Assembly (NCBI GenBank): GCA_033439265.1
Contig: JAVTVX010000019.1
Coordinates: 21,726,039-21,790,038 of the forward strand
Direction of reading: 5' to 3'
DNA length: 64,000 nt
DNA from: Dillenia suffruticosa
Taxonomy: Eukaryota > Streptophyta > Magnoliopsida > Dilleniales > Dilleniaceae
Positions 4,278 through 45,342 of the stretch are shown here, piece after piece. The notes beneath the pieces are model-generated. The model saw nothing but the letters and a program-made list of their open reading frames with translations. It ran no database searches and was not told the DNA's origin. Positions within the stretch are counted from its first letter, which is position 1, and each line of letters begins with the position of its first letter. A program made the translations under genes and the position numbers.

Positions 4278-5995
4278 TTGGAATTGAAGCCACTTCTCAA
4301 CAAATCTAATTTTCTGAAGATGCAGATACTCTTGACACAGTAAGTGTGCTGGTGCTGCATGTCTGTTACTGTTTTTGTCCTATCATGTTGTAAATAGATT
4401 TTGAGAAGAAGGGATCCGATTTAATTGAAACTCTCTCAGGCATTAGAGTCTTTTATATGGATTCAATATGAATTATAATGGTAGATTTTGAGGATTTGGA
4501 TATAGCAACATCCATCAACATTTTCATTTGATCTCTATTCTAGATATCTGGGAGAGGACAATTTTCTTTTTGCTAGTTGTCTTGATCAGAAACCCTTTTT
4601 GCAGCGGCAGGGTTCATAATGAAGTAATGAAGTTGATTAGATGGAGAACTTTTCAATAAATCTAACCAACTCATGCATTTTGACTTGTTCTGATATTCCA
4701 AATAAGAAAATGTAAGAAAGACACAAGCTTCAGAGCCTCTGGACTATTGTTTTTAAGGACTCACAAGGCACCCCAATTGGTCTATGATAAGATCGTAGGC
4801 TAGTTTGTTGTGTTTAAGAATATGCTGTTGATAGGTTAGTGTGCATTGGCATTATGCCCTAAGGGCATGTCTGGTTTGGTGTGTAGGTGATGCTGGCATA
4901 TCACGGTTTCTTCATTGTTAATATAATTATATGGTAGATGCTAGTGTTATCCCTTTAATCAATGAACCATGATGCTCAGAAAGCCCAATGGAATCTCAAG
5001 TTCGTTGCTTTATCTTATGTCAAATGTCTAAATATATTGAATTAAGTTCAGTCATCTTTTTGAAGCGAGAATAATCGGTTATCATCGATTAGATGCAACC
5101 CGTTCGACTTTCACCGGTGACATCAAACTACGATTCTAATAATATCAATCTTCTAAAATGTGTAATAATATCGATCTTTTAACAAATTTCAATATTTAAA
5201 TTAAATTATTATTTTACATTTTTATGTAATTTAGTATTTTTTAATTTGAATTTTTGGAATATATACCGGGTAAAGTTATTAGTTAATAAAAATCTATAAA
5301 AAAAAATTATTTGTATTAATGATATCTTAAATAAAATGATCTTTGGCTACTTATGAAACCGCGGACAAGTATTACATTTTGCATTAGTAAGGGTAGTAAG
5401 ATAATTCTAATATTTTTATATTTGTATAATTATGAGTGTAGATGTCCTTAAGGGGACAACTTAGTGGTCATAATCCCATCCTCCAACCTGATGATCTGAT
5501 ATTTAAATCTCTGTGTAATAAAAAAAAATAATTATGAGTCTAGATGCATTTATAAGAATAATTGTTGAATCATTAAATTATACTAACAATAGTTTTGTTA
5601 CTATTTAAATAATAATTATAACTTATATAAAATTTTACAAGATATTAGAAAATCGGTCGAATATCAAATTAACTACATTTTTTATGATAATTGTATTGAT
5701 GTATTTTAATAAAATTTTAATTAAATTGTAAATAATGAGGATTCGATCAAAATGTGGTCAAAATATATGGATTAATCTTTAATTTATTTAGTTCAAGAAA
5801 TTAAAAAAAAAAATTCCCCTCTGCATATTTTCTCGACCCGACTTCGGAGGATGTGACCCGACCCGTTTGTTTACACGTCTCCCCGTTTTTTATGGTACGA
5901 CGCACTTCTCTTCATGGTCCAACCATCTTCTTCATCTAGGGTTTTAGCAACTCCTTGTGCGTTGATAAACCCTCTCTCTCGTTCTCTCTACAACA
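4278..5995. other. AT-rich intergenic region and MEFG promoter/5' leader
   Basis: No coding sequence is seen. The stretch 5150-5800 is very AT-rich. A short SINE-like repeat lies at 5451-5535. The last 180 bases before the elongation-factor start are less AT-rich and pyrimidine-rich, as expected for a promoter and 5' leader. Confidence 0.5.
5451..5535 (+). repeat. SINE-like dispersed repeat, copy A
   Basis: An 85-base block (GTCCTTAAGGGGACAACTTA... ending in an A-run) closely resembles a block at 15844-15940, including the AAGGGGACAA core, a pyrimidine-rich middle, TGATGATC-like sequence and an A-rich tail. Copy B carries a GGTTCAAATCC box like the B box of tRNA promoters; in copy A this box has decayed. 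A tRNA-derived SINE is the best guess, but neither end was verified. Confidence 0.4.
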
Positions 5996-22467: not shown

Positions 22468-25400
22468 TTATGTCCTCCACAACTTTGAACCCATCAATTC
22501 TCGATCTGCTGCAGACCCTTGGTTTGCAACCTTTTGAATGCGAGAGGAGAACGCTTCAGCCTGATAATATAAATGGAACTCAGTAAACTAGCAATAGAAA
22601 GTACTTGAGATGACCAAGATGGAAATGCAACTTGTTCAGCAGATTCCACACTTGTAACAAGGCTTGAAAGCCTTGGGAAAACACGGAAGCATGAACAACA
22701 TGGGAGCTTTCAACTTCAGAGAAGTTGAAATGACCAAGACTAATAATGAATTCAGAATATGTACTTTGTGCAGTGCTTGAACAACAACCTAAATGCTGTA
22801 CAAATACAAAATTATCTATCATGCGATATATTGCCTCTTGATTCCATAACTATTTGAGTTGATGGAAAAATAAATAAATAAATAAAAGACCACCCAAGAT
22901 ACAAACCTTTTCGTCAATCCACATTAAGGAACTTAGTTGATTGTTCAGTATCCGAACAACAGCATCCCAAGGAGTCATCCCATCAATTATATTTAGCTCT
23001 CCACCCTGAATAAAGAATAGATAAGTAAAAAATCATAAGGGAAAGAGCCAAGGGAAGAAGTGAAACTCTTCAACTTGAAGGTTTTACCTGGTTGGAATTA
23101 AGAGTCTGTATAATTGATTTAATCTGCTCTGCCATCTGCTCTATTTCCCTTTCTAGGAATTCAGCCTGCTCATACCTGATATCCTCCCAAAGAGGATAAT
23201 GAAAAATGATTCCAATAGATATCATCAATACACAACACTTATATGGAGACAAACTTGGAAGAAATCAAGAAAGCGGAAGGAAGGAATACAGCCAACTTTG
23301 ACTCTCAGTTATAGCACTTCTCTGATAAATGAGAAGTGTGCAAGTGCGTGATTGTACCAGAACATTGCCAAGAATGTTGCAGGTAATTTCCTCAGAAACC
23401 AGAGAAATGGTATGTCAGAACCAATTTCACTCATTGTGATAAATGCAAGAATTGAAGATCTTAACCAACTGTATAAACCAGTATTGGCCCAACTACACTT
23501 CAGTTATACCTCGAAGATTAAAAGTGAAATAGCTCAACAATGGATAGCAATGAAGACAATGCTATATGTAAATGCAGGAAGGTACTTTGTCATATTTGAA
23601 CTACAGAGATAGCAGATTTCAAGCCAAATCACAGAGGCAAAGTTTCCAAAGAAACAACTCCAAAAGACCCAAACATGCAGTGGCACTCCATCAATAGCCC
23701 GTCACCCAGTGAAGAATAGGAAAAACTAAATATTTATATGTAAGATGATATGGAAAGGCCGCCCATCCCCAATCAGCCAAATCTACAAGCTTGAGTGATA
23801 ATGCATATTATGATCAATAGATATCATGTTGCTGCAAAAACTTACATTGCATCTCTGGTGGAGGCAACTTCATCATCAAGAAGTAGTCCGCGTTCATCCT
23901 TGTAAATACGCTCAGCCTCTTCTTCTACACTCTGTAAAGCTTTGTCCACCTAATATCAACATTTGAATTTGATCAATCAAGTATAAAAGCAGAAATTTTA
24001 CATAAAATTCAAAATGCCGGTTCCCCACAAAACCCCCAAAAAAAATGAAATAATCCAGAAGATATAATCAGAACTCAACGATTTGAGTGTGTGTCATTTC
24101 ATACAACCAGACACTAAATAAATATAAAATAAGGGGTGCAGTACATCATGGTAGCAACTGTAATACGGCGCCATTCAAGCCTGAAAACACAGACAGTCTG
24201 CCAAATAGAAACATGCATGAAGTGAAGAACAATAAACACCAAGAGAATTGTGCCTGAAAGTAGCAGGCACCAAACAATGATAAAACCATGATTAACCTTG
24301 AAGAAAAGTCTCTGTTTGCATAGACAAAAAGCCTAAAAACGTACTTATCCTAGCCCTACTTTTTTAAGAAGTTAAGACTGATCAACTAGTATGTTGATAT
24401 GGACCAAACCAACGAAAAGGCGATAAAAGAATAATAGCGTACTTCCTGTTGATGAGTTTCAATCAACTCTAACTGCCGCTCCAACTTAGATTGGGTCTCC
24501 ACTACTTTTGCCACCTCAATCTACAAACAAATTAAGAACGATTAAACTAAAACTTAACCTAGAAGGAGGTTTCATAGATGTTATAGAATAAATAAAAATA
24601 GAAACAAGATCAAATCAGGCTTATAAACCTAACTTCATCAAAAGCTGCAAAACACTGATCATAAACTCAATAAAAGTGAATATGAAAATAATCAGGAATG
24701 AGAAAAACACCAATCCAAATTCATCGTACTGCAGAATCCTGTTATTGAAAACTCTGGACGAGGTTTTGTTAAGGTAACATATGTGATATGACATTATAAG
24801 CAAAGTGCAGAGGCTATCTAACTTTATTCACAGAGAACAGCGCCAGTCAAGGGAAAAAAATGCAATACACTGGCAGATGTATCAGTACGTTTTCCATAAT
24901 GTTACTTAAATTTGAAATGAATCACCTCAAGTTTAAGAAGGACATCACGATTTTGCAAAATTCTCTTGTCCCACTCAGCAATTGCATTAGCCTGCTTTCG
25001 GAATTTCCCAGTTCGCTCTTGTAACTCTGTGTTCCACTCCTTAATGATCTTTATCAGAAAATGAAAATGTATTAAAGGACAAGAAGTTGGTGAAAGAAAT
25101 TTAACCAAAACTAAGGATAGTTCTTCATCAAATGAACAAGCCACTTGAAAGGCAATGAACAAGCCATTTGAAAGGAACTCGAAGCATATCCAATGAATGT
25201 GAGAAACATAAATGTTAGGAAGAACTCAATAAGCATGCATAATGAAGCACAAAGAAAATGAAGTTGCTATTAAAGATTGCCAAGACTGACATTAAAAAAT
25301 TAAATAAGCCAACCATGTCTAGAGGGGAAAAGCTGCAAATACCTCCTCAACAGTCTTTCCTGCGATCTCAGATGGTAATTTTGGCAATGCTGCAGCAGCT

Positions 25401-28400
25401 GTTGATGCAGCCCTATATATAACAGAAGGCCAGAAGATGTCAATGTCTCATAGCATCAAAGAACTGTTCACCATAGCATGTTAAGATTGATAATGGTAAC
25501 ATCTTATTTTAGGCATTTCACAAAGACGTGTTAAAAAGATTATGAATTTATCGTACAAAACATCTCATTTCATCTTGAAATCTATAACTTCGGATCAGAT
25601 AGTGGCTCCCCATCTCTCACTCATAATTGGCATTTAGTATACAAATCTTTTTGAGGGCATACACATGTATAATAGATATCCTGGCAATAACAGCTAGTTA
25701 CTTATCCTTTAAAAAAGAAACATAACATCATCATTTCCAAATTAAAGATTAAGTATACAAACCCGCCACTAGAAGCTACAACAAGCGCAGCTGATGTTTG
25801 AGCTGCAGTGCTGGCGGTAACAGAAGCTGTTGCGGGTGTGGAAGCTGAAGTAGAAACACCTAGAAAAAGAATAGAATAATACACATGAAATCTTCCTTTA
25901 AATATAATTATATTGGAAAAGAATTATAATAAGACCAGAACTTTGGCAACGAGGGGAAGCAAGAAAAAAGCTGATTTAATCAGATCAATTCCTACTAGAA
26001 AAAATTTTTGGCAGGCGATGCTACTCACTAAATATAATATTAATTGTGTTAAAATTGCAAAGACGATGTGAAGTAAGTTGATAGGTAATTGTTTCTTACA
26101 TTAATCACTACTGTCCAATCATGCTATTACATCTAAGATGCGGTTCCCAGTACAGCCACCATTCTATAACAATGGCAGGCAAAGAGTAGTAAACACAATT
26201 GAGATACAACAGCAAACCCACAAGTAAAGATATGGGATCTTTCCAGTGATTACAGCCACATAAATAATGTAGATAGTGAATGCACCACCAACTCAGTGTG
26301 CAGGTGGTAGGTGCTTTTAGTAGCTTATGACTCTAATTTCTGCAGTCAGGACAGCCTCAATACCACACCGGCTAGAAGAGTGTCAGCTATGGGGGTTCTA
26401 CCATTAATTTAGATCCTAGGTACCGGCAGTTAAGAAAGTCAACTAAAAACATGGGATCATTCCAGTGATTACAGCCACATATATAATGTAAATAGTAAAT
26501 GCACACCGACATACTGTGTATATTATACAATACAGATTAATAGGCAGTAGTGTTTTTGGTAGTATATGGCTCTCTAATTTTCTGCAGTCAGGATAGCCTC
26601 AATGTCACACCCAGCTAGAAGGGTGTCAATTATAGGGGATCTACCATTCTCTTAGGTCCTAGGTACTGGAGTTAAGAAAGTCTAGCTTCAAAGGTTGCCA
26701 TTTCAACCCGGAGAAACAGACCATTTAGCATGCACAACTATAGCCTCTACATCCATATTACATCTGCATTTTCCCTCCCCCCTCCATTCTCCAAACGACA
26801 TCGTCAAACTTAATCTCGTCACTGCTCATACCAAAGGCAACCAGAGAGACATAGTGGAATGCCAGTGACATGTTCCTTTAGGGTATCCAGAGAAACTATA
26901 GACCAATTTAAACACCGGCCATTCCTCCAATGCCTCTATCATCAACAACGAGACCAGATCACTACCACCCCAAGTCAAGCATCAACCACTCAAATTCCCT
27001 AGTGAACTAAGTCAACATTGGCATTATGAATTCAAGAACTAGTGCTCTTATATTATTACTCTGCATTAACCCCGCAAGTTTTGGTTCAATTCTTCATGAA
27101 ATGATAACTGAATTTAAAACTTATGCAAATCCAAAAAAAAAAAAATTAACAAGCTCACCAAACACAGGAGTAGCAGCAGTTGACTGTGCTTGTGACGACG
27201 AAGATGTAGTCACACCAAAAAGGGGAGTGGTGGTGGTGGTGGTAGTAGCAGCAGACTGTGCTTGCGAGGATGAAGTAAAAGCTGCACCAAATAGAGGAGT
27301 TGTAGAAGAACTAGTAGTGGACTGCGCCTGCCCAAATACTGGAGTTGTGTTAGTCAACGTCGACTTTGAGGATGAAGCAGAAGCTGTAGCAAAGAGAGAA
27401 GTAACGGTACTTGTCTGTGTTTGGGACGCGGACGCTGAAGCTACTTTCGTAGACAGAGAAAAACTCGGAAATGAAGCCACAGTCCCCGAAGAAGCAGAAC
27501 TAGCAGTCACACCAAAACTTGGTGCAGTTGCTGCAGAGCCAAAACTGGATGCCGGAGTAGATGGGGCAGCAGCAGCGGAGGATGAAGAAGATGAAGTTGT
27601 TTGGGACGCAGACGCTGAAGCTCCTTTCGTAGACGGAGAGAAACTCGGAAATAAAGCCACAGTCCCTGAAGAAGCAGAACTAGCAGTCACACCAAAACTT
27701 GGTGCAGCTGCTGCGTTGCCAAAACTGAATGCCGGAGTAGATGGGGCAACTGAGGATGAAGATGAAGTTGAAACTGTGGCCGCCGGAGTTGAACCTACAG
27801 TTGTTGTGCCAGTAGAAAACAGAGGTGCAGTCGATGTTCCGAAACCCGAAAATGCTTGTTTGGAAGCTGCAACAGGAGTGGTTGAGACTATAGTGACAGA
27901 AGGCACACTAGCAGAAGAAGAAGCTGCATTGCTGAAACCACCGAAAGTAGATTGAAATGACGAAGAAGACGATAGTGTTCCGAACGAAAAACTCGGAGAA
28001 GATGAAGACTCAGAAGTCTCGGAAGAAGAAGTTGAAGTGGTCGCAGTCTTCCCAAAAGGCGGAATTGAAAATGCCCGCGTAGAAGAAGCCGAGTGAGAAC
28101 TTGATCCAAAGATAGTGGTTGATGGAGCTGAAAAGCCCGAAAACGGAGTCGGAGTCGAAGTCGAAGTCGAAGTCGAAGTCGAAGCCCAAGCCGAAGAAGC
28201 TGCCGCCGTAGGAGCAGAAGCTGAAGAGGAAGATGAGCCGAACAATGGAGATGAAGAAGATGCGCCGGACAGAGAGGATGCGGATCCAGATGACCCGGAT
28301 CCGAACCCGAAAGAGAGAAATGGGGCCGATGACGAAGAAGAAGACGTAGACGAGGAAAAACCGAAACCGAAACCGGAGGAGGGAACAGAGGCAAAAGATG

Positions 28401-28665
28401 AGGAAGAGGAAGAAGAACTAGGGTTAGATAAGGAAAGGGCGGAGGATAAAAAAGGTGAAGAAGATGGGGTTGAGACAAAAGAGAGAGGGTTTGAAGAAGT
28501 TAAAGACAAAACAGAGGAAGAAGAAAAGGAGGACGAGGAATTAGGGTTTGAAAAAGAGAAAGGTGTTGAAGAAGATTGAGATGAAGAGGAGAATCCAAAA
28601 AGAGGGGTTGAAGATGAAGATGTTGATGATGATGATGATGGGTTGATGGACAAGCCGAAGCCTGA

Positions 28666-28668
<3 letters not shown>
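22468..28668 (-). CDS. NUP62: Nuclear pore complex protein NUP62, 9 exons, complete
   Basis: Central-channel FG nucleoporin that forms the NUP62-NUP54-NUP58 complex and lines the transport barrier. Minus-strand exons: 28668-27159, 25859-25763, 25412-25343, 25048-24926, 24520-24443, 23949-23846, 23175-23088, 23005-22907 and 22560-22468. All phases join, giving 753 aa; the Arabidopsis protein is of similar length. Exon 1 (residues 1-503) is Ser/Thr-rich with many FG, GFG and PLFG motifs. It contains a 60-codon in-frame duplication (27421-27600 and 27601-27780). Exons 3-9 encode the Nsp1_C coiled coil: EIAGKTVEEIIKEWNTELQE, AEWDKRILQNRDVLLKLE, MTPWDAVVRILNNQLSSLMW. The last exon holds the conserved end AEAFSSRIQK...ADRELMGSKLW. 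The start codon is preceded directly by a 50-bp GA tract. Intron 1 (1.3 kb) has its own tandem duplication. Confidence 0.94.
26231..26685 (+). repeat. Tandem duplication in NUP62 intron 1, period about 219 bp
   Basis: GGGATCTTTCCAGTGATTAC at 26234 and GGGATCATTCCAGTGATTAC at 26453 begin two diverged units that both end near GTTAAGAAAGTC. The same pair is present at 38494 and 38715 in copy 2, so this tandem event predates the gene duplication. Confidence 0.85.
27421..27780 (-). repeat. In-frame 180-bp tandem duplication in the FG domain
   Basis: TTGGGACGC(G/A)GACGCTGAAG begins at 27421 and again at 27601, exactly 180 bases (60 codons) apart, with high identity through the AGAACTAGCAGTCACACC segment. 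It doubles a Ser/Ala-rich FG block. Both units are absent from copy 2. Confidence 0.85.
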
Positions 28669-28722: not shown

Positions 28723-30500
28723 AATTGGGGTGAGATGAGAGGACTCGGAATCGCGTGAAGGCTTTGCTTTCGAAAATTGACAGGGTTTAAGGTGGCGCTT
28801 GTTTTTCCGCTACTCGGGTCGATTAATTGAATCGGAGTTTGTTTCGGGCTGAACCGCTGTTGTGAAGAGGAGATGGCCGGGGAAGAAGACCTAGGAAAAC
28901 AATAAAAAGGTTGTGACGACATTATTTTTTATTTTATTATTACCACAGATAAAAAAAAAAAAATCATTTTTTATTTTTTATTTTTTATTTTTTATTTTTA
29001 TATGTGAAATTTTTACAGATCATCTCTAGAGCTTTTTACATATTATCTTTAAACTGGTGCGGAGAGAATAATGAAGAGAGTGAGTGGGCAAAATTTACGA
29101 AGGGCAGAATGCTATGAAGAGGGTAATTTGATAAATATATCGATTTTCAAAAATAATTTATCAATCAGAAAAAATTTAAAATAAAAGCAAACTACAGAGA
29201 TTTTTAATAATTTATCATATTCTTTATATTAATATACTGTTCCGATAGTATTATCTAGAAAATAAAATATTAAATTAAAGTAGGTAACTGTGTTGTTAAA
29301 ATTGTATGGAATAAAATCTTGAAAAAAATAATTTAATTTTCTAATAATTAATAGATTATAAAGAAACGATAACACATTTCCAATAATATGCCCACAAATT
29401 CTAAAATAGTTTTGACAAGGGATAAATGGTTTATAATAAGTAAAATAATACACATGTGAAATGATTTTATAATTCCACAATAATAATGAAAAATTCTAAC
29501 TTTTGAAGAAGGTTATCTTTTGAGATTAATTGGGACTAACCTTATCTTAATTATATCTTATAGTACCTGATTCAATGGCCTATTATCATAAGATCAAAAC
29601 TACCTGAACCCATTAGACCATATCGCCCATAAGCGACTAAACATACTGGTTGTCTTTTAGTTGAGTGCTATCCTGATCCGACATTTCTTTCGACCCTCTT
29701 GGTCTTATTCTCTTGAGAAGCCAGATATATTTGACCTCTCGATCATCCCAACTCTCAGTACCCAAACTTCTTAGTTATCCCCACTCTTCAGTATATGTGT
29801 TCTATTAATACAAACATAATTCATTCCATTACGTGATAAATACAATTAGAAACCATCCATCAAGGAAGTAAATCTCTAATAAATTTAAATTTTTCTTAAA
29901 CAAATATAAATATTCCATATTCCTGAAAAAATCTCTCTCAACAAGAAAATATATCTCAGTAATCACTCCCGATAAGTCAGGAAATCTCCGTAACAACTTG
30001 AATTTTCCTTAACCGACCAAATTCTAAATCTTTTCGAGATCTTTGACTATAGTTCATATAATTTCAGAAGATTTTCAACAATTTCTATAAGAAAACTAAT
30101 GTTTCTACACCGCTAATCACATACGACAATTACTATATATACATGTTATATATATTCAGCATAAAAAACCAACGAGATACGTTTTCAAAAACTCTATACT
30201 TATCGCATAGAGACACACATAAGGTTACCTCATAGATTTTCTTAGTCTGTTTTTATTCTTTCAAAACTGCTCTTTCTAACTTGAATGTCAAAACCTCCCT
30301 TGTCGGAGCGCCTTCCAACGGTATTTGTACATCACATCATTCACGAAAACCCCGAAGATTCCTTATCACTTCGGTTCCACACATAAGTCAGTGGAGCAAG
30401 CATCTGTAGAGCAGACCTACATCCATCAAATTGGTGCCATCTTTAGGAAACAGACTAATTTTTTAACCAGCATATTTAAACTCTATTCATTATTTCAATT
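28719..30500. other. AT-rich intergenic region, possible LTR remnant near its end
   Basis: No gene is seen. From about 30130 there is a TATATATA-rich stretch. At 30431 TTGGTGCCATCTTTAGGAAA resembles the primer-binding region that follows the 5' LTR in many plant Ty3-gypsy elements (usually TTGGCGCCGTCTGTGGGAA). Part of 29500-30425 may therefore be a decayed 5' LTR, but its start was not found. Confidence 0.35.
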
Positions 30501-32590
30501 GCCATGCCACCCGAAAGAAGGAACGAAAACACCTCAAAGATCATGTTTACTACATGAGGACAAATGTCCAATCCCGCAAATATTCCTCCCGAAAATCAGC
30601 CAGAGATTCTGGTTATCCACCCCAACATCAAATAGAAATGCTTCCCCAAGAAGTTCTTCATTTGCTGCTACACAATTCTAGGACCAACTGATTCCACCTA
30701 TTGCCCCAGCCTCTCTTGAGAAAATCCACCATTCAATAATGGAAAAACTCGAATCGAAGATGCAAAAGATGACTAAGAGGTTAAAGAAGCTTAATCATGC
30801 TCGACGATAAGAAGGATCGTCCTCTCCCTAGATATCAAAGCAATCATGCATGCGCAAACTCCAACCCCGAAGGCAACGAGAGCACTTAGTCACCTCCTAG
30901 CACGATCCATACAATTTGAGAAAACAAGTCAAGAATCTCATGACCGTCAAATTGAAGTGTGCTAGTGTAGGCAAAGAAGATGTCACCCATTATGTAGCTG
31001 GTCTTTCTCCTTTTGATCTCAAAGTTTTCACTGAGCCCATGCCACAAGATATGCTTCTCCCTCCTATGAAAAGGTATGACGGTACTACTGACCCTTGAGA
31101 CCACACAACCACTTCATGATAGTTATGATCTCAAGAGACATGTCAAATGCTACCAAATGCAAGTACCTCCATACGACCTTAAAGGGTAACACTCTAACCT
31201 GATTCAATTTACTCCCTCCATTTAGCATCAAGAATTTTTCCTAATTCCGACAACAGTTCGAAACACATTTTGTGATCAATTGAGAGATCAAGAGAAAATT
31301 TACCTCCCTCCTATCCTTGCGACAAAGAGAAGACAATTTTTAGATAAGTTCAAGAACAAGATGATAAAGGTCTCTGGTCTAAATCACTCCATTTTGCTTG
31401 CAGTACTACTCAGTGGTTTGTAGCCTTTAGGAATAAAGACCTTTATAATAAAGAATCCTCCATCCACTATTCAAAAATTCTATATTTGAGTAGAAAAATA
31501 CATCGCAATTGAGAAAACTGAGACATTCAATAAATGTCAAAACAGAGTAGGGAAAAACGAACGCAATCACTCGCCTCATCAATCATCACCAAAGAGGAGC
31601 TGATTGGGACATCCTCCTCATTTGAAGTTTACTAGCTACACTTCTCTAAATGACACTCTAGCCAAATCCTATTGTAGATCGGAACAAACCCTACATTAGA
31701 GGCCCCCCTTGCCCTCAGGGGATGACTCGAAAAAGGATGAGTCCTGATACTATCACTTCCATAGAGACTACAGTCATCTAATAGATGAATGTAGAAAGTA
31801 AAGGCGATCTTGAAGTCTTGGTTCGAGATAGCAAACTCCAAAGGTTCTTAAGTATAGAATAAGAGAACAACCCTCCTCGAAGTCCACATGTAGTGGCACA
31901 AGCAAATGAGCCAAATGAGATACCACTCTCGGGAGTTGGGTGAACACCCCTCTTTAGCATCTCCCTCTTCTGGAGAGGCCTCTCCTACCCTGAACTCAAT
32001 AGCCTGAATGGATACTCAACAAGGTCAAACTGAACGAACACTCGCACCAATCTTCCAGAAGGTTGAGGCACCTGCTTCTAAAGAAATTCTCACAACCCGC
32101 ATCAAGAAAGGATAGAAAAAGAAAAGATCTACGATGGGCTTTGATAACAATGATCTAACAGAGACTGATCCAAACCGCCATGACTGTTGGTCATTACAAC
32201 CAAGATAGGCCGGTAAAAAGTAAGGAGGATCCTTATCGACCAGGGGGAGGCTACGATCTCCTTTACTGAGATATAGTCCAGCGGATGAGCTTCGATTGCA
32301 CATATCTTCAGCCTCATGTTGGACCTATAAAGGGACTCCCGGGTGAGTGGCTCTACCTCGAGAGTACTATCCCTCTTTCTATCACTCTCGAAACACCACC
32401 TAATTTTGCAACTACTATGGTGACGTTCAATGTGATCAAACTATAGTTAGCCTACAATGCCATCCTGGGATGCCTCGACCTAAATGCCTTAGAAGCATTA
32501 CCGAGTGCCAATCAAATGAAAGTCAAATTCAAAACACCTCTCAGAATCAGGATGCTTCCATGTGACCCCAAGTCATCCATTGTTCCAGTC
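30501..32590 (+). mobile_element. Degenerate Ty3-gypsy retrotransposon (gag and protease remnants)
   Basis: Many stops and frameshifts break this former polyprotein, but its order can be followed. A possible gag start is MPPERRNEN (about 30504). Gag capsid-like blocks include KRYDGTTDP (about 31071), TTLKG and a later YYHFHRDYSHLIDECRK (about 31740). The protease C-terminal pattern LAYNAILGCLDLNALEALPS lies at about 32449-32508. Reverse transcriptase, RNase H and integrase were not found, so this is a 5' fragment or an internally deleted element. It lies between the two NUP62 copies, on the opposite strand to them. Confidence 0.75.
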
Positions 32591-33627
32591 TAGTAATCTC
32601 TACCTATTATATACTATCATTTTGTTCATAACTCAAATTGAATAAGTTAATTCAAGAATTTCATAGTTACTCTTGCAATAGTATTTTCATTTCTTATGTT
32701 TTTCACTGTCTTCTCATAATATCATGATTGTAACCGACGCACGCAGCTGAGAATAGCTTGCAGCCCAACCGAGTATACACGGTCCGCTGTCTCGGCACAA
32801 TACTTTCAAACTCTCTCAATGCAATGTCTTCAAACTCTCTCAGTGCAATGTCTTCAAACTCTCTCAATGCAATGCCTTCAAACTCTCTCTTGGTCAACAT
32901 CAACAAACACTCTTGGCACAATGCTTTCGAACTCTCTCCTCGCGCAGCGCCAACAAACACTCTCTCAATGCGATGCCTTTGAACTCCTTTGGCATAGAGC
33001 CAATGAGCACTTTATCGATGCAACACCCGGTGCACTACATACATGCTTTCAAGGTGCAATGCCTTTACAATGCCTCGACACATTGCCTCTCTGTATAATA
33101 CCAAAAACATGCTCCAACTACAACACCTCCATATAGCTCTACACAACATGGTTTAAAACACGATATGAGCCTTACGCCCCCTTAACAACGGATATGGCTT
33201 CATACAACCCCTTTTTAACAAGATTCAAGTTTACACGCCACAACGAACGAGACTACAAGGCAGCAAAATTGCAAGATTTCACTTAGCGTCGGCCTTTATA
33301 GGATCCTAAACCAACCTTCATAACTCCTTTTTGGGATATCATCTCGACACTCCATTCAAGGTTCACTCAACCTTGCTCATAGTTAATAACACATTTCTCA
33401 TACTTTCTCAATATTACATCTGTTACATTACCAATTATTATTACCAATTCATTCACATTCATGAGGGGTGCCTACTATGTTCATACCTCACCACTCTCGC
33501 CCAACAAAGGGGATAATCAAGTAGCAAAACAACATCACGGCAATGTAAAAGCCATAAATGAAAAATAGCCATGAAAGTTTCTCTCATTAAGATGCGTAGA
33601 TTACACAGAAGCAATGGCTATAACAAA
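32591..33627. other. Non-coding DNA between gypsy remnant and chimeric gene
   Basis: Apart from the 24-bp minisatellite at 32798-32893 and looser repeats of its AACTCTCT motif up to about 33010, no gene or element was recognised. It may hold the decayed 3' end of the retrotransposon. Confidence 0.4.
32798..32893 (+). repeat. 24-bp minisatellite, four units
   Basis: Four consecutive 24-base units share CAATG(T/C)CTTCAAACTCTCTC with one or a few changes; the first reads CAATACTTTC. Degenerate copies follow to about 33010. Confidence 0.9.
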
Positions 33628-36600
33628 TCAAGGAGAAAGGGGAGCAGGAGGCCTTCGCCGCAAGTTAATGAAATCAATGCGAAGAGCATCTATACGTGAA
33701 CTGGCAGCGGTGACTTCTTCAGAACAGCCTCCCATGAGAGCACTCCCAAGACTCAAGCCCAAACTATCGAAGCTACCAACATCAGCTCTATCAGCCGCGC
33801 CACTTCTTAACCGTCGGATAGTATTCTCAGCCTCACGCAACTTTTCAGAAAGCTCTTGACGGTTGCGTTCACAAGTTTCCTCCCGTTCTCGCAAAAGCTC
33901 TTCAACAGTTAGCCGACCTGCTTCACTTCTTCTAAGGAGATCTCTCAACTTCTCACCCTCTTCAATGGCCGCATCGATAATCTGATACGAATAGTTCAAA
34001 TCAATCTGCAACAACTCTATCATTTTTTTCTTTTTGTTAAGGGTAGACATTGTCTTTGCTTTCTCAGCTTCCTCTTTTGCCTGCTCAGCTTCCTTTTGGA
34101 CCTTCTCGGCTCGAAGCCGAGAAATCTCCTCTTCGAAACCATCCAACTGACCCTTCAAGTGATCTACTTGCTGCTCCTTCCTTATCCTTTGAAACTCCAC
34201 CATAGCAATAGCCTACAAGTGAGAGACAAATTACATTGACAACGATAGAAACGATGAATTAACATAAACTCTACCAAAGAGAACAAACCTGAATTAAAAG
34301 GGATACCACAGCCTCATCACCTTGCTCCACCGATAAGTGGCTCAACTCTGACTTTGCTCGGTGAAAATCTAGCCTATCAACAAATCTCCCTACTTCAGCA
34401 ACATCCGAGTAGCAAAAATAGTTGTCACCGCAGCTTGCAGCGACCGTTTCTTTCTCCTTCAAATGCTTTAACCGGTCAAACGAACAATCCAAAATTGGAG
34501 GAAGAGAAGCCGTTTGCTCATGCACCACCCCTTTACTCTTCCGGACGAATAGGTACTCTGGGAGGGCGCTTGAAGAACCCAGTTCAGTTCTTCCTACCCC
34601 ATCCTGATAATATAAATGGAACTCTTCAGCCTGATAATATAAATTGAACTCAGCTGACTAGCAATTGGAAAAACTTGAGATGACCAAGATGGAAATGCAA
34701 CTTGTTCAGCAGGTTCCACACTAGTAACAACGCTTGAATGCCTTGGGAAAACAGGGAAGCATGAACAACATGGGAGCTTTCAACTTTAGAGATGTTGAGA
34801 TGACCAAGACTAATAATGAATTCAGAATATGTATATTGTGCAGTGCTCGCACAACAGCCTGAATGCAATACACATACAAAATTATCAATCATGCGATTTG
34901 CGTTCAACACATTGCCTCTTGATTCCCGTAAGTATCTAAGTCCATGGAAAAACAAATAAATAAAAGACCACCGAAGATACAAACCTTTTCGTCAATCCAC
35001 ATTAAGGAACTTAGTTGATTGTTTAGTATCTGAGCATTAGCATCCCAAGGACTCATCCCATCAATTGAATTTATCTCTCCACCCTAAATAAAGAACAGGT
35101 AAGTAAAAAATCATAAGGTAAAGAGCCAAGGGAAGAAGTGAAATTCTTCAACTTGAAGGTTTTACCTGGTTGGCATTAAGAGTCTGTATAATTGAATTAA
35201 TCTGCTCTGCCATCTGTTCCATTTCCCTTTCTAGGAATTCAGCCTGTTCATACCTTATACCCTCCCAGAGAGGATAATGAAAATGATTCCATTAGATATC
35301 ACCAAAATGCACAAAACTTATGGGGAGACAAACATGGAAGAAATCAAGAAAGCAGAAGCAAGGATTACAGCCAACTCTGACTCTCAGTTATAGCACTTAT
35401 TTGATAAATTATAAGTGTGCAAGTGTATGATTGTACCAGAACACTGCCAAGAATGTTAGGTAATTTCCTCAGAAACCAAAGAAATGGTATGTCAGAACCA
35501 ATTTCGCTCATTGTCACAAATGCAAGAATGGGAGATCTTAACCAATTGTATAGAACAGTTTTGGCCCAACTATTCTTCAGTTATACCATGAAGATTAAAA
35601 GTGAAATAGCTCAACAATGAATAGCAATGAAGACAATTTTTGCTACATGTAAATGCATGAAGGTACTTTGTCATATTTGAACTACAGAGATAGCAGATTT
35701 CAAAAGCCAAATCATAGAGGCAAAGCAAAGTTTCTAAAGAAACAACTTCAAAAGACCCAAACATGCAGTGGCACTCCATCAAGAGCCCCTGTCATCCAGT
35801 GAATAATAGGAAAAACTAAATATTTATGTGTAAGATGATATGGAAAGGCCCCCCATCCCCAATCAGCCAAATCTAGAAGCTTGAGTAACAATGCATATTA
35901 TGATCAATAGGCATCATGTTGCTGCAAAAACTTACAATGCATCTCTGGTGGAGGCAGCTTGATCATCAGAAAGTAGTCCACGTTCATCCTTGTAAATATG
36001 CTCAGCCTCTTCTTCTTGTAAAGCTTTGTCCACCTAATATCAACATTTGAATTTTATCAATCAAATATAAAAGCAGAAAGTTTGCATAAAATTCAAAATG
36101 CAGGTTCCCCATGAAACACAAAAAAAATAAAATAAAATAAAATAAAATAATCCAAAAGATATAATCAGAACTCAACGACTTGGGTGTTTGTCATTTTATA
36201 CAACCAGACACTAAATAAACATAAGTAAGTCATATTTCTCCTTTAGTTATTTCTATTTTCAAGATCCATACTTGATTCTACAATTTCAGACAGCCAAGAG
36301 AAGTGATAAATGAATTGGAGGCTACAAATAGGTCCAAAATGTGGGATTTATCTTCCAAAAGGGGTGCAGGACAATATGGTAGCAACTGTAATCTGTCTCC
36401 ATTGAGGCCTGAAAACACAAGCAGTCTGCCAAATAGAAACATGCATGAAGTGAAGAATAATAAACACCAAGAGAATTGAGCCTGAAAGTAGCAGGCACCA
36501 AACAATGATAAAATCATGATTAACCTTGAAGAGCAGCCTCTCTTTGCATAGACAAAAAGCCAAAAACAGTACTTATACTAGCCATACCCTTTTAAGAATT

Positions 36601-39600
36601 TAAGACTGATCAACTAGGATGTTGATATGGACCAAACCAACAAAAAGGCGATAAAAGAATAATAGCATACCTCCTGTTGATGAGTTTCAATCAACTCTAA
36701 CTGCTGCTCCAACTTAGATTGGGTCTCCACCACTTCTGTCACCTCAATCTGACAAACAAATTAAGAACGATTAAACTAAAACTTAACCCAAAAGGAGGTT
36801 TAATAGATCTTATAAAATAAATAAGAATAGAAACAAAATCAAATCAGGCTCATAAACCTAACTTCATCACAAGCTGCACACCACTGATCATAAACTCAAT
36901 AAACGTGAATATGTGAATACTCAGGAATGAGAAAAACACCAATCCAAATACATCATACTGCAGAATCCTGTTATTGAAAACTCTGAAGGAGGTTTTGCTA
37001 AGGTAACATAAGTGATATGATATTATAAGCAAGTGCAGAGGCTATCTAACTTTATTCACAGAGAACAGCACCAGTCAAGGGGAAAAAAGGCATACACTGG
37101 CCTAACAAGATTACAAACAACTCAGATGTATCAGTACATTTTCCATAATGTTTCTAAAATTTGAAATGAATTACCTCAAGTTTAAGAAGAACATCACGAT
37201 TCTGCAGAATTCGCTTGTCCCACTCAGCAATCGCACTAGCCTGCTTTCGGAATTTATCAGTTCGCTCTTGTAACTCCGTGCTCCACTCCTCAATGACCTT
37301 TATCAGAGAATGAAAATGTATTAAAGGACAAGAAGTTGGTGAAACAAATCTAATCAAAATTAAGGATAATTCTGCATCAAATGAACAAGCCACTTCAAAG
37401 GCAATAAACAAGCCATTTGAAAGGCACTCGAAGAATATCGAATGAAAGTGAGAAACATCAATGTTAGGAAGAACTCAACAAGCATGCATAATGCGGGACA
37501 GGGAAAACAAAGTTGCTCTTAAAGATTGCCAAGACTGACATTAAAAAATTAAAAAGAGAATATGAAAATAAGCCAACCATGTCTAGAGGGGAAAAGGTGC
37601 AAATACCTCCTCAACAGTTTTTCCTGTGATCTCAGATGGTAATTTTGGCGATTCTGCAGCAGCTGTTGATGCAGCCCTACATAACAGAAGGCCAGAAGAT
37701 GTCAATGTCTCGTAGCATCAGAGAACTGTTCACCATATTGACAATGGTAACATCTTATTTTAGGCATTTCACAAAGATGTAATAAAAAGATTAAGAATTT
37801 ATTGTACAAAACATCTCATTTCATCCTGAGATCTATAATTTTGCATCGGATAGTGGCTCCCCATAGTGGCTCCTCATATCTTACTTTTAAATGGCATTTA
37901 GTATGCCAATATTTTTGTGGGCATACACATATATAATATATATCCTGGCAAAAACAGTTAGTTACTTATCCTCTAAAAAAGAAAAATAACATCATCATTT
38001 CCTAATTAAAGATTAAGTATACAAACCCGCTACTAGAAGCTACAACAAGTGCAGTTGATGTTTCTGCAGTGCTAGCGGTAACAGAAGTTGTTGCAGGCGT
38101 GGAAGCTGAAGTAGAAACACCTAGAAAAAGAATAGAAGAATCCACATGAAATCTTCCTTTAAATATAATTATATTGGAAAAGAATTATAACAAGACCAGA
38201 ACTTTGGCAATGAAGAGAAGAAAGAAAAATTCAGATTTAGTCAGATCTATTCCTACTAGCAACAATTTTTCACCGGCAATGCTACTCGCTAAATGTAATA
38301 TTAATTGTGTTAAAATTGCAAAGACGATGTGAAGTGAGGTGATGGGTAATTGTTTCTCACATTAATCACTACTGTCCAATCATGCGATTACATCTAAGAA
38401 GCGGTTCCCAGTACAGCCACCATTCTATAACAATGGCAAGCAAATAGTAGTAAACTCAATTAAGATACAACAGTAGACCCACAAGTAAAGGAATGGGATA
38501 TTTCCAGTGATTACAGCCACATAAATAATGTAGATAGGGAATGCACCACCCACAAAGTGTGCAGCTGGTAGGTGCTTTTAGTAGCTTATGACTCTAATTT
38601 CTGCAGTCAGGACAGCCTCAATACCACACCCAGCTAGAAGAATGTCAGCTATGGGGGTTCTACCATTAATTTAGATCCTAGGTACCGGCAGTTAAGAAAG
38701 TCAACTAAAAACATGGGATCATTCCAGTGATTACATCCACATATATAATGTAAATAGTAAATGCACCACCGAGATACTGTGTATATTATACAATACAGAT
38801 TAATAGGCAGTAGTGTTTTTGGTAGCTTATGGCTCTCTAATTTTCTGCAGTCAGGATAGCCTCAATGTCGCACCCAGCTAGAAGGGTGTCAACTATAGGG
38901 GATCTAGCATTCTCTTAGGTCCTAGGTACGGGAGTTGAGAAGGTCTAGCTTCAAAGGTTGCCATTTCAACCCGGAGAAACAGACCCTTTAGCATGCACAA
39001 CTATAGCCTCTATATCCAGATTACATCTGCATTTTCCCTCCCTCCTCCATTCTCCAAACGACATGGTCAAACTTAATCTCGTCACTTCTCATACCTAAGG
39101 CAACCAGAGAGACCTAGTAGAACACCCCTGACATGTCCCTTTAGGGTATCCAGAGAAACTATAGACAATTTAAACACTGGCCATTCCCCCAATGCCACTA
39201 TCATCAACAATGAGACCAGATCACTACCACCCCACTTAATCAGCATCAACCACTCAAATTCCCTAGTGAAGTAAGTCAACACAGGCATTATGAATTCAAG
39301 AAATAGTGCTCCTATATTATTACTCTGCTGCATTAACCCCGCAAGTTTTGGTTCAATTCTTCATGAAATAATAACTGAAATTAAAACTTCAGCAAATAAA
39401 AAAACTTAACAAGCTCACCAAACACAGAAGTAGCAGCAGTTGTCCGTGCTTGTGACGATGAAGATGTGGTCACACCCAAAAGGGGAGTGCTGGTGGTGGT
39501 GGTCGTCGTAGTAGTAGTAGCAGCAGACTGAGGTTGCGAGGATGAAGTAAAAGCTGCACCGAATAGGGGAGTTGTAGAAGAACTAGTAGTGGACTGCGCT

Positions 39601-40268
39601 TGCCCAAATACTGGAGTTGTAGAAGTCGCAGAAGCCTCGGAAGAAGAAGTTGAAGTACTCGCAGTCTTCCCAAAAGCCGGAATTGAAAATGCCGGCGTAG
39701 AAGAAGCCGGGCTAGAACTTGATCCAAAGACATTGGTTGATGGAGCTGAAAAGCCCGAAAACGGAGTCGGAGTCGGAGTCGAAGCCGAAGCCGAAGAAGC
39801 TGCCGCCGTAGGAGCCGAAGCCGAAGAGGAAGATGAGCCGAACAATGGAGATGAAGAAGATGCGTCGAACAGAGAGGTGGCGGATCCAGATGACCCGAAT
39901 CCGAACCCGAAAGAGAGAGATGGGGCCGATGAAGAATAAGATGAGCTAGACAAGGAAAAACCGAAACCGGAGGAGGGAACAGAAGCAAAGGAAGAGGAAG
40001 AGGAAGAAGAACTAGGGTTAGCTAAGGAAAAGGCGGAGGAGAAACAATGTGAAGAAGATGGGGTTGAGCCAAAAGAGAAAGCGTTTGAAGAAGTTGAAAA
40101 GAAGAGAAAGGAGGAAGAAGAAGAGAAGGAGGAGGAATTAGAGTTTGAAAAAGAGAGAGAAGGTGTTGAAGAAGATCGAGATAAAGAGGAGAATCCGAAA
40201 GGAGGGGTCGAAGCCGCAGATGATGATGATGACGATGATGGGTTGATGGAGAAGCTGAAGCCTGACAT
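33628..40268 (-). CDS. Chimeric gene: NUP62 duplicate (exons 1-8) fused in frame to a coiled-coil protein
   Basis: Minus-strand exons: 40268-39419, 38120-38027, 37676-37607, 37297-37175, 36748-36671, 36033-35936, 35253-35166 and 35083-34985 (all NUP62-like, 500 codons, no stop, splice sites intact). These are followed by 34630-34289 and 34212-33628 (308 non-NUP62 residues). The phase is zero at the joint and the frame stays open, predicting 808 aa. The FG exon is about 220 codons shorter than in the complete gene; the Nsp1_C coiled coil is kept, with two codons lost in exon 6. The NUP62 C-terminal exon (AEAFSSRIQK...) is replaced by AEEFHLYYQDGVGRTELGSS, an unrecognised region (SFDRLKHLKEKETVAASCGD, AKSELSHLSVEQGDEAVVSL), then a long charged coiled coil (RIRKEQQVDHLKGQLDGFEE, AEQAKEEAEKAK, LLREREETCERNRQELSEKL). 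The second partner is not recognised; it could be retrotransposon-derived. Expression is unproven, and an untranslated remnant is the main alternative. Confidence 0.7.
34604..34657 (-). repeat. 27-bp direct repeat at the fusion joint, duplicated splice acceptor
   Basis: CCTGATAATATAAATGGAAC at 34604 and CCTGATAATATAAATTGAAC at 34631 are 27 bases apart. On the coding strand each supplies the same TTATATTATCAG acceptor, copied from the end of NUP62 intron 8 (compare 22561-22575). Because 27 is nine codons, splicing to either acceptor keeps the downstream frame. Confidence 0.85.
34622..40268 (-). repeat. Segmental duplication, copy 2 (NUP62 locus)
   Basis: Counterpart of 22561-28668, in the same orientation about 12 kb away, covering all introns and exons 1-8. 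It lacks about 660 bp of exon 1 and ends abruptly at the intron 8 acceptor. The intron 1 tandem pair is present at about 38491-38945. Confidence 0.9.
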
Positions 40269-40850: not shown

Positions 40851-42480
40851 TAATAGAAAAAAAATAAAAAAGAGGTTAATTGCTAGAGTTTTAAAAAAAG
40901 TTAATGAATGAGGTAAAAAAAGATAATAAGTGGAGTAAGGATAATAGAAAAAAAGAGATGACCATCCGTGGGACAAAAAACAATTGGAAAAAAATTGATG
41001 TAAAAAATGAAGGATTTAAGAGAAAAAATGGTAAAAAATAAAAAGAGTAAGATCCGAATGAAAAAAATTATGGTACAAAAATAAAGAAACGATAATTCAC
41101 GGGACAAAAAAAAGGAAAAAAAAAACCTATATTCAAAAAAAATGAAAGACTCAAGCGGAAAAAAAATTGGGTAAAAAAAAAACAAAGCAATGATCTGAAT
41201 AGACAAGTGAGGCAAAATAGGGGAAAAATCTATGTCCACAAAAAAAAAAGAACTTAAGGAAAAAACTAAATAAAAAAATAAAAAGAGGAAGGGTCCTAAC
41301 AAAAAAAAGTAAAGAAAAATAAGCAAAGAGAGAGAAAAGAGCTTAAAGGAAAAAAAATTGTAATCTAAAAATAAATGGACGACTATCCGAGACTATCCGA
41401 GTACGCTACAGACAAGTGGAGAAAAAAAAATAAAAGAAAAAAACTATACCAAAAAAACCCAAGGGATTTAAGTAAAAAAATTGGATTAAAAAAATAGAGA
41501 AAGGATTGGAACAAAAAAAGGTTCCAAAAAAATGAAGGATATGAAAAAAAAAAAAAAAAATTGTAAGCAAGTGCAGAAAAAAACAAAAGAGGAAAAATCC
41601 ATATCCAAAAAAGGAAGGACTAAAGCAAAAGCAAAACCAAGTAAAAAAAATCAAAGGAGAAAGGAGCAAAATAAAAAAAAAATGATCAAAAAAAGAGAAA
41701 GTATTTGAATGAAAAAAAAAAACTAAGATCTCCTAAAAACATGGGACGACCACTCCCAAGACGCATTTTATTTTATACTTAGAAAAAAGAGAAAGACATG
41801 ACCAAAAAAAATTATGGTTGGGGCAGGAAAAACAAAAGGAAAAAAACCCTATATCTAAAAAAATGAAAAATCTAAACAAAAAATAAAAACTAGTAAAAAA
41901 ATAACAAGATGAATGATCTAAATTTAAAAAAAAAAAGTAAAAAAAGAGTAAAAATTTGAATGAAAAAAAAATCCCAAAAAAACATGAGATGACCTCTCTC
42001 AAACCGATTTTTCTTTTATATTTAGATAACCAGAAAAAAAAATCAAAAAAGAGAAGTGACATAAACGGGAAAAAAAACTGTAGTTAGCAAGTGAGGCTAA
42101 TAAAAGAGGAAAAACTCATATCTAAAAAATGAAGAATTTAAATGAAAAATAAAATCAAGTTAAAAAAAAAAAAAGTGGAAGGATCCGAAGTGAAAAAAAG
42201 AAGTCAGAAAAAGAGAAATGACTTGAATAAAAAAAAGATCCAAATGAAAAAAAAAAAAGGTTCAAAAAAAAGGGATGATCACTCCTTTGCTATTTTTTCT
42301 TTTATACTAAGTTATGTGAGAAAAAAATCAGATAAAAAAAAAAAGAAAAATGAACTAAATGAAAAAAAAAAAAGTTAAAAAGGAAGGATACAAACGAAGG
42401 AAAAAAAAAGGAAAAATCTGAACAAAAAAGTTGCAAAATGACTTTAAAGTAAAAAAAAAAAGAAAAATTACGGTTCAAAA
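40850..42480 (+). repeat. Polypurine, A-rich satellite-like block
   Basis: About 1.6 kb in which the plus strand is nearly all A and G, made of loosely repeated phrases such as AAAAAAATGAAGGAT, GGATCCGAA and AAGTGAGG. A longer unit recurs: a 'GGGA(T/C)GA(C/T)CA(C/T)' phrase, then a T-rich piece TTTTCTTTTATA(C/T)T(T/A)AG, at about 41745, 41990 and 42275. This suggests a higher-order period of roughly 240-290 bp. No coding function: the Phe- and Lys-rich open frames here are low-complexity artefacts. Confidence 0.75.
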
Positions 42481-43195
42481 AGTTAAAGTCACATGTGGGT
42501 CATGTTGGTCACGTGCATGGACAACCACACTCTTGGCCTTGAAGTACACCATGTAGCGTGGTTTGGAGTTTGAATTTGGTTGCGAAAGATTCGATGATGT
42601 GTCCGGTTATATAAAAAATCATTAAAACGATTAGTTAATTTTGAATTTATGAAATTAAAAAATCAAAAAGAATTCAAATATTAAAATCTTTTAGAAAAAT
42701 TATGATTTGAATCGTAAAATTATATGTTTAAATTGAAATATTTAATACTTTGCTCGTTTTAAAAAAATTATTGAAACGTTAAGTTAATATTGAATTTATG
42801 AGATTTGAAATTTGTTAAGAAAATTACGGCTACTTATAATAAATAATTATAAAAATTTGATTTGTTATATGATATCATTAAAATATAATGAATTGAATGG
42901 TGTTTATTTTGAAATTTTTATTATATTTATTAAACATCTCAATTCATATTTACCGAAGATAAATTTGAAAAAATAATTTAAAAATTACAAAATCATGGCC
43001 CGTAAAAAAGTGTAGGCTTTAATAATAATTTCAAAAGAAGGGAGGCCAAATTCTCATTAAAGTCGAGATTGCAAAAAGTATATATATAAGCAAAACAATG
43101 AAAGAGAAAGTAGGGGAAAAAAAAGAGTAAAAGTAGCTTTTGCAAAAGGTCAAAACAATAAGCAAAAGTATCTCTACGAAAAGCTACTTTTGCAA

Positions 43196-43375
43196 AAGGT
43201 CGACTGTGCGCTAAGTCGACAAATCTGTGGCCTTAATCGACCTAGGACACCAGGCCACCTTGGTCGACCAAGGCCACACCCTTGGTTGACGAGGCCGTGG
43301 CCTTGGTCCACCAAGACCCTACATTGGTCAACTAAGGCTATGCCTTGGGTCGACCAGAGCTTTTGGGACGTTGGT
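43196..43375 (+). repeat. Cluster of TTGGTCGACCAAGGC-like palindromic repeats
   Basis: Short units around (T)TGGTCGACCAAGGC recur about every 20-30 bases with substitutions (TTGGTTGACGAGGC, TTGGTCCACCAAGA, TTGGTCAACTAAGGC, GGGTCGACCAGAGC). The block is GC-rich against a strongly AT-rich background. Confidence 0.75.
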
Positions 43376-43865
43376 GGTCGATATACCCTCGATTTTTAAA
43401 TCATTAATTACTAGAATTCTTATTTATTGAACTGTTTGATACTCAGTAATTCTTGTTTAGAGAAATATTTGGTACTTGGTAGTTTTTATTTATTGAAGTG
43501 TTTAATGTTGGGTGGAATTTAGTTTCTCTGTAACAATTTGATTTTTTTTTTAAATTAACAAATATATTGTGTATTTAACTTTTTTAATAAATATTACTCT
43601 TTTATGATACTTGGCAATGTGAACTCATTCGATAAAGTTCCATTATTACCATTTTTTTAAAATATATATATTCCTATTTGTTTTGTTACATTTTTCCATT
43701 TAGCTTTCATCATACTGTCTCTTGGTATATCTGCTCCTTTGCATTTATCTTTTGGGTCTCTCGGTGCATCACTTTTTTCTTTTGTGATTTCTATCTCTTT
43801 TCTCGGCACATTATTTTCTATTTACCTCTAGGTGATGTTATTTGCTCGGTAGACTTTTAGCGTTT

Positions 43866-44284
43866 GGTGTATTATTTTTTCAATTTTAATTTCCGATCAG
43901 TGATGATTATTTAAATTTGAATCTCTCAGCTACCACTGTCGATTGAGCTTCTCGGCTCGGTTGACCTCTCTCGATTATCAAGTTCCTTGACTATCGAGAG
44001 AGGTCAAGCTTCTCAGTTACTAAGAGAGGGCAACCTCCTCCGTTATGTTGCAATAAGAAAAGAAAGCTACTCGATTATCGGGAGATGTCAAACTCATTAA
44101 TTATAACTCTTGTAATAATTTAGAGTTATTGTTTCAAATGTATTTGGTATACTGTTTTTTCAATTTTAATTTTTGATTATAAATGATTACCTAAATTTGA
44201 GCCTCTTAGTTATCTTCCTCAATTGAGCCTCTCGGCTCGGTTGACCTCTCTAGGTTATCAATCTACTTGACTACCGAAAGAGGT
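43866..44284 (+). repeat. Diverged tandem duplication, period about 280 bp
   Basis: TTTTTTCAATTTTAATTT, then GATTATTTAAATTTGAATCT and TCTCGGCTCGGTTGACCTCT in the first unit are matched in order in the second unit from about 44150 to 44284. Confidence 0.75.
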
Positions 44285-44927
44285 CGAGGAACATAGTTCA
44301 GCCTCTTGGCTACGAGGGCATATCAGGCCATGAAATGACAAGGAACATAATTCATTTACTCGAAGCACGAGAGATCATATCAAACCTGAAGCAAAGGAAA
44401 TATGTCAGCAACAAATGTAATGAATCCACTTAGGGCGACTACCATATTCCTTCAAGTAAAAACATTGTGGCAGTTCACGTAAAATAGAAGTAAAAATATT
44501 TCCTGGACTGGGTAACATTTAGGGTTACATATTTTAACATGCTACCAAGGATGATAACACCCCAAAAATTCACCCCCCCCCCGGCGCAATCCAATGACCA
44601 TTGCCTTCTCCGAATTGCTCGTTTTACTGCAAAATCCTTGTTATTAATAATAATGGTTACAAACAAATAATTACAGAATGTGTCGAAATACACTAAACCA
44701 CATTTCTTTTCCTTGAAAAACTTCTCAAACTTCCCCAACCCAATCAGCCCATCTTCTCCCAAACATATTCCTCCCTTCCATTTTGCTGACCAGCTGTCCA
44801 CTGTAGTGATAGAAACCCAGTACAAAATATTTCCCTGCCTTACATGAAGTTTATTAGCTTTTAGTAACAACTTACAAAACTTATAGTAAAATTGAACAGA
44901 TCCCCGAATATATAGTTAAGCAGGTGA

Positions 44928-45018
44928 TTAGCTTTCATCACATACAAACTCAATGAAGTTCATCCCCTCATCATCAGTTCGCCTCCGTCGTCTTCTATAG
45001 TAATATGAGTCCCAATAC
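44928..45018 (-). pseudogene. Orphan terminal exon (YWDSYYYRRRRRR...), unrecognised gene fragment
   Basis: On the minus strand a good acceptor (CTCTTTGTTTAG) precedes a 29-residue open stretch that begins YWDSYYY, has six arginines, and ends MNFIEFVCDES before TAA. The composition looks like a real C-terminus, not random AT-rich DNA. No upstream exon was found before the tRNA gene and the opposite-strand PPR gene, so it is probably a transposed or leftover last exon. I do not recognise the protein. Confidence 0.3.
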
Positions 45019-45270
45019 CTAAACAAAGAGCATAATGAGGTTCAAAAAAGGAAAAAAAAAAATGATACCGCTACACATTTTCCTCACACAACCCGGTGAA
45101 AAGACAGATGACATGTCCAAAATAATCAAAAAAATGATTACCTAAACAATGACATAGTTTGATTAGAACTTGGGTTATATTCTGTTCATTGTCAGCGTAA
45201 TTTCTTAAAATAATCAGAAAACAAAAAGGGCAAAAGGGTCACCATGGGTTAAATTAATTGCAAAATTAAC

Positions 45271-45342
45271 GCGCCAGGTAGGGGTCGAACCTACGACCTT
45301 CTGCTTAGGAAACAGACGCTCTATCCACTGAGCTACAGGCGC
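45271..45342 (-). tRNA. tRNA-Arg (anticodon CCT)
   Basis: Reads on the minus strand as a 72-base cloverleaf starting GCGCCTGTAGCTCAG. The D arm is GCTC/GAGC, the anticodon stem TCTGT/GCAGA with loop TTCCTAA (anticodon CCT at 45309-45307), and the T arm GTAGG-TTCGACC-CCTAC. The acceptor stem pairs except for one T-T mismatch at the sixth position. There is no intron. A TTTT run about five bases past the 3' end can stop RNA polymerase III. It lies about 100 bases upstream of, and opposite to, the PPR gene. Confidence 0.95.

Follow-up and report, generated by a model that had tools for sequence, protein, structure and literature searches.

The window, the whole stretch of 64,000 nucleotides that was analysed, is part of contig C19 in the 596-Mb genome of Dillenia suffruticosa. 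It carries two copies of the gene coding the channel nucleoporin NUP62, both on the minus strand (Table 1). Copy 1 has the complete set of nine exons, while copy 2 retains eight open NUP62 exons with GT/AG borders, and its frame then continues through two exons of another origin to a stop codon, coding 808 amino acids of which 308 follow exon 8. The introns between the ten exons of this fusion are all of the GT...AG type. Translation and inspection of the splice borders bear out the coordinates and the 808-residue chimeric frame proposed by an earlier, sequence-only reading of this DNA. In copy 2 the host exons are joined in frame to coding sequence of a transposon; both the structure of the fusion and the source of its last part are well supported.

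Table 1. Features of the two NUP62 copies and of the adjoining transposon sequence (positions in the window)
Feature	Positions	Strand	Remarks
Copy 1, NUP62	22468..28668	-	exons 1-8 open, true exon 9 at 22560-22468; original locus by synteny with contig C30
Copy 2, exon 1	39419..40268	-	start codon (40268) and shortened FG-repeat region, 284 aa, 12 FG
Copy 2, exon 2	38027..38120	-	3-base deletion private to copy 2
Copy 2, exon 3	37607..37676	-	
Copy 2, exon 4	37175..37297	-	coil; many changes private to copy 2
Copy 2, exon 5	36671..36748	-	
Copy 2, exon 6	35936..36033	-	6-base in-frame deletion private to copy 2
Copy 2, exon 7	35166..35253	-	
Copy 2, exon 8	34985..35083	-	
Joint	34604..34651	-	end of intron 8 with first AG acceptor, piece of exon 9, end of intron 8 again with second AG
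Fusion exon 9	34289..34630	-	first 27 bases from the NUP62 joint, the rest from the 3' part of the transposon first exon
Transposon's own intron	34213..34288	-	GT...AG here
Fusion exon 10	33628..34212	-	second exon of the transposon (coiled coil); codes 194 aa, then stop
Rest of the 5'-truncated transposon	29560..33627	-	internal region and one terminal-repeat copy (~30430-29560)

The NUP62 copies and their relationship

A third copy of NUP62 (h3) is found on contig C30 from position 793635 onward. Copy 1 matches h3 piecewise through the gene and beyond it, upstream to 29555 and downstream to 19567, while the match of copy 2 to h3 is confined to 40312-34619. Since only copy 1 shares its flanks with h3, it represents the original locus, from which copy 2 is derived. 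The latter is a DNA duplicate of 5.7 kb that extends from about 44 bases 5' of the start codon as far as the twelfth base of exon 9. Its BLAST pieces are 86-90% identical to copy 1, and intron divergence between copies 1 and 2 amounts to about 3.3% per branch. Retrotransposition is ruled out for copy 2, whose introns are kept and alignable, as is a duplication of the whole upstream region, given that copy 2 and h3 have just those ~44 bases before the start codon in common. Broken NUP62 relics with 73-78% DNA identity and stop codons within the matched stretches occur elsewhere in the genome (L021, ~4270-8670; L022, ~4850-5120).

The expectation that copy 2 keeps the FG repeats and most of the coiled coil agrees with the data. 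The FG-repeat region of exon 1 spans 504 amino acids with 20 FG motifs in copy 1, 461 with 12 in h3 and 284 with 12 in copy 2. From exon 2 on, the fusion is recognized by the Pfam model Nsp1_C (E 2.1e-20, 73.1 bits, cut-off 24.1). The conserved carboxyl terminus of NUP62 is lost, as the sequence-only reading had also noticed: 26 of the 30 residues coded by exon 9 are replaced. These fall in the matched part of the NUP62 chain of PDB entry 9sob, the closest solved relative, to which the copy 1 coil aligns with 333 bits. Copy 2 thus resembles the NUP62/Nsp1 channel nucleoporins in having FG repeats and Nsp1_C, but differs from them in lacking the last 26 residues, in carrying a tail of 308 amino acids and in having conserved coil sites changed. 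The copy 2 coil (~37650-34985) is also more acidic, with a net charge of -23 compared to -15 in copy 1 and -16 in h3.

Of the parental upstream region, only the ~44 bases before the start codon were copied. The DNA upstream of copy 2 is repetitive between 41900 and 45400, and the repeats at 41925-45104 give match rows of 66-86% identity on many contigs. A tRNA-Arg (CCT) gene lies at 45270-45342 on the minus strand, in a stretch that matches repeated rows on contigs C34 and C15. The window also contains an open frame of 753 codons that presumably codes a protein of the pentatricopeptide type.

Transposon source of the tail and formation of the joint

The tail is the end part of a two-exon coiled-coil gene belonging to an old transposon family, an assignment that is well supported. 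The sequence-only reading had left the origin of the tail open. Matches in the genome, the window included, amount to at least 42 rows for the first tail exon as DNA and at least 154 for the second as protein, some rows being pieces of one copy. The match begins at some point between 34606 and 34575 in each of 10 fetched relatives, and in four of them (L010, L013, L015, L017) it extends across most of the internal region. The terminal-repeat stretch 30430-29560 is matched in 9 of the 10, somewhere in the fetched DNA. Long direct terminal repeats of ~460-770 bases, 71.6-79.3% identical and with starts 6-8 kb apart, are found in three (L010, L013, L017), a feature expected of an LTR retrotransposon, while the copy in the window retains one end only. 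Within the window, the DNA upstream of copy 2 gave no match to the 5' half of the transposon from these 10 relatives.

The joint lies inside a transposon exon, since L011, L015 and L016 have an open stretch across the corresponding point. The intron between the two tail exons is at the same place in the relatives, its borders being changed in several of them. In the distant relative L029, open in its own frame, exons one and two span ~467 and 196 codons, from which the tail corresponds to about the last half of such a transposon protein. The sequence-only reading had considered it improbable that 342 + 585 foreign bases would be open and spliced in the right phase by accident. The bases are indeed open, but the reasoning has to be amended: all except the initial 27 belong to a pair of exons that a transposon gene brought along together with the intron between them, and only the joining phase is left to chance, about 1 in 3.

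Pfam scans of the tail, of six pieces of the relatives' coiled-coil gene and of the open L029 gene reached no curated cut-off and gave no named transposon family. A model of the second tail exon, built from 4 sequences (mean pLDDT 83), predicts one helix of 137 residues and a short one; a PDB fold search with the modelled last exon returned a single match of no value (E 8.5). The new long charged coil suggested earlier is half right: the model supports a coiled coil in the last exon, but fusion exon 9 contributes 114 residues, placed between the coil of NUP62 and the 137-residue helix, that have no Pfam match. Base changes in the tail show no deamination signature clearly different from that of its relatives.

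Other members of the family have features of their own. L016 bears, at 4368-4934 when numbered in its reversed orientation, a tandem repeat of the tail first-exon region within one transposon copy. L029, L030 and L031 share stretches of ~9.3 kb that are 98.6-99.9% identical; in L029 the open two-exon relative of the tail gene is found beside a fragment of a Pif1-type helicase and a weak B3-like match. These stretches may represent a young Helitron-like carrier.

How the joint was formed can still be read from its sequence. At the border of intron 8 and exon 9, copy 1 and h3 read ...GAGTTCCATTTATATTATCAG / GCTGAAG(C or A)GTTCTCC. Copy 2 has at the joint the intron end, GCTGAAGAGTTC, CATTTATATTATCAG again and then the transposon sequence GATGGGG. 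Twelve bases of exon 9 (34630-34619) are followed by a repetition of the last 15 bases of intron 8 (34618-34604), so that two 21-base repeat copies can be delimited (34651-34631 and 34624-34604) that differ at one base. The repetition of the intron 8 end yields two AG acceptors, one before 34630 and one before 34603, 27 bases apart and both in phase. The differing base is a change in the first repeat copy that is absent from the second, from copy 1 and from h3; the joint is therefore not brand new.

Copy 2 probably originated by replication-based repair. In this mechanism the copying strand would have slipped back 27 bases, from the GAGTTC of exon 9 to that of intron 8 (a 6-base match), would have copied anew the intron 8 end with its acceptor, and would then have switched at AGG into a transposon situated 5' of the original gene. 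Replication template switching leaves traces of this sort, a slip followed by a switch, and is the likely process at the joint.

Openness of the frame and change of residues

Several comparisons address whether the frame was kept open, and all are to be read knowing that the fusion was chosen because its frame was open. In none of 3000 runs of a neutral simulation with intron-derived rates, started from the sequence as it stands today (exon 1 of copy 2, exons 2-8 of copy 1 and the tail) rather than from the ancestor, did the whole frame stay intact, and the probability of having no stop codon is 0.033 on its own. Halving both rates raises the probability of an intact frame to 0.0017 for all 808 codons and 0.08 for the tail.

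Rates of indels taken from introns may overestimate those of exons, so the transposon was used as a second calibration. In its non-coding part, 2291 bases hold 12 private indels, 11 of them frame-breaking. The coding tail has one, an insertion of 18 bases, and hence no frame-breaking indel where 4.3 are expected (P 0.013), an expectation that takes the whole tail branch as unconstrained and would be lower had the element still been live during some of that time. The same coding stretch has 4 frame-breaking indels in L010 and 7 in L013. Relatives were fetched at 9.9 kb (20 copies) and 14 aligned, namely 12 nearer ones and the distant L029 and L031; left out were L011, L012, L014 and L018, with the second exon missing or short, L030, which is 98.7% identical to L029, and the distant L032. 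All 12 nearer relatives have stops in the tail frame, 2-12 each, while L029 and L031 have one each. The relatives had more time to decay, as the terminal branches of those with stops are longer than that of the tail (0.15-0.43 vs 0.12).

Within the NUP62 exons, the indels private to copy 2 are four events (6 bases, one large, 3 and 6), all of which keep the frame as far as the alignment resolves. When the large exon 1 deletion is counted as a single event, indels that are multiples of three are 4 of 4 in exons vs 4 of 12 in the introns of copy 2 (70/1820 by hand calculation, ~0.04).

The residues tell a different story from the frame. For exons 2-8, dN/dS on the copy 2 branch is 0.74, with a range of ~0.4-1.5 that includes 1, while the two remaining branches have 0.22 (likelihood-ratio statistic 5.96); an omega of 0.74 does not indicate purifying selection on the copy 2 coil. 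In exon 1 the copy 2 branch has a dN/dS of 2.7, its range leaving out 1, over a background of 1.1. This could reflect positive selection, the repeat-rich alignment making it weak evidence. The tail branch, in a tree that joins the window copy with 12 relatives, has a dN/dS of 1.04 (range ~0.6-2) compared to 0.57 on the other terminal branches and 0.23 on the internal ones. Changes private to the tail are distributed over the three codon positions as 35/23/27, with no excess at the third, while the counts are 32/27/48 in L010 and 39/31/41 in L013. The tail's share of change is 0.281 in coding and 0.315 in non-coding sequence, the former not being significantly lower (P 0.27). Copy 1, h3 and the PDB chain agree at 142 sites of the coil, and copy 2 differs at 16 of these, one of them by deletion; in the same comparison copy 1 alone departs at 2 and h3 alone at 1. 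The sequence-only reading had held that neutral dN/dS combined with stop codons at the population level would speak against a gene; the first half of this describes copy 2, where dN/dS is near 1 in both coil and tail.

Young gene or open relic

The frame looks kept and the residues do not, so the case for selection on the frame is suggestive and a functional gene is a candidate only. The reading that we prefer, with a probability of roughly 0.48, is that a partial DNA duplicate of NUP62 was joined in frame to a transposon coil gene and gave a young chimeric gene, whose frame was selected during part of its life while its residues were free. That selection kept the frame open for at least part of this time is less certain than the fusion itself. 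A lucky pseudogene is about as likely. It would stem from the same fusion event, never have been usefully expressed and be open by luck and youth, and it earns nearly even odds from the dN/dS of ~1 in coil and tail, the scant upstream sequence copied, the loss of conserved coil residues, the missing codon-position signal of the tail and a share of tail change that is no lower in coding than in non-coding sequence. What weighs against it is the conjunction of an open frame with undamaged splice borders and with indels confined to multiples of three, jointly unlikely under neutral rates calibrated on introns or on the transposon.

The remaining explanations are much less probable. If copy 2 were an ordinary working NUP62 with the tail as a tolerated extension, Nsp1_C would still be recognized, as it is, and the viable Arabidopsis carboxyl-terminal truncation described in the available part of PMC4203139 shows that such a loss can be borne; the rise of coil dN/dS from 0.22 to 0.74, the excess of changed conserved sites over those of copy 1 and h3, and the lethality of other nup62 alleles in the same partial source make this quite improbable. 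A comparably slight chance attaches to the transposon as the driver, capturing NUP62 exons that it would then spread. The joint is inside a transposon gene, and host-gene capture by plant elements is well described (PMC13317346, as far as its accessible text goes), but one fused copy only is seen, the other near-full NUP62 matches being copy 1 and the C30 copy; moreover the 5' half of the element was not found upstream in the window, and the retained introns show that no RNA copy was made. An artefact of assembly or haplotype merging at the joint is similarly improbable: the window has no N, the two repeat copies at the joint are one base apart, and copy 2 is just 86-90% identical to copy 1 in BLAST pieces.

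Under the preferred reading of a young chimeric gene, the product, if translated, would have FG repeats, most of the NUP62 coil and the 308-residue tail, and would lack the last 26 residues of NUP62. Arabidopsis nup62-2, thought to lack 53 carboxyl-terminal residues, is viable, small and early-flowering, so loss of the carboxyl terminus need not abolish function; other nup62 alleles are lethal, and NUP62 is therefore not freely dispensable (PMC4203139, available part). From these phenotypes, the retained Nsp1_C and the 26 lost residues, the likeliest role for the protein, if it is made at all, would be to enter the NUP62-NUP54-NUP58 channel complex as an altered or weak partner, or to compete there; it would not replace copy 1. 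The stronger proposal of a second, fast-evolving channel nucleoporin, with a transposon coil as carboxyl terminus and a selected frame, that alters or competes with this complex in some tissue or in genome defence is unlikely.

Chimeric genes of host and transposon sequence are already known as a kind. Copy 2 shares with host-transposon fusion genes the joining of a host coding region to transposon coding sequence, and with maize Bs1, a plant chimeric gene made by a transposon, the transposon's part in the chimera (PMC13317346, accessible text). It differs from both in being a DNA duplication that ends in a transposon exon, with introns kept and no reverse transcription. Genes that harbour or adjoin transposons, documented at the RNA level, are alike in running into transposon sequence, whereas copy 2 is a duplicate with its last exon replaced and is known from DNA alone. 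A search of the open-access literature found no paper on a channel nucleoporin with its carboxyl terminus swapped for a transposon coil. Since the joint still records the steps of its formation, the birth of a chimeric frame can be traced here base by base, and, if expressed, copy 2 would be a natural test of the role of the NUP62 carboxyl terminus.
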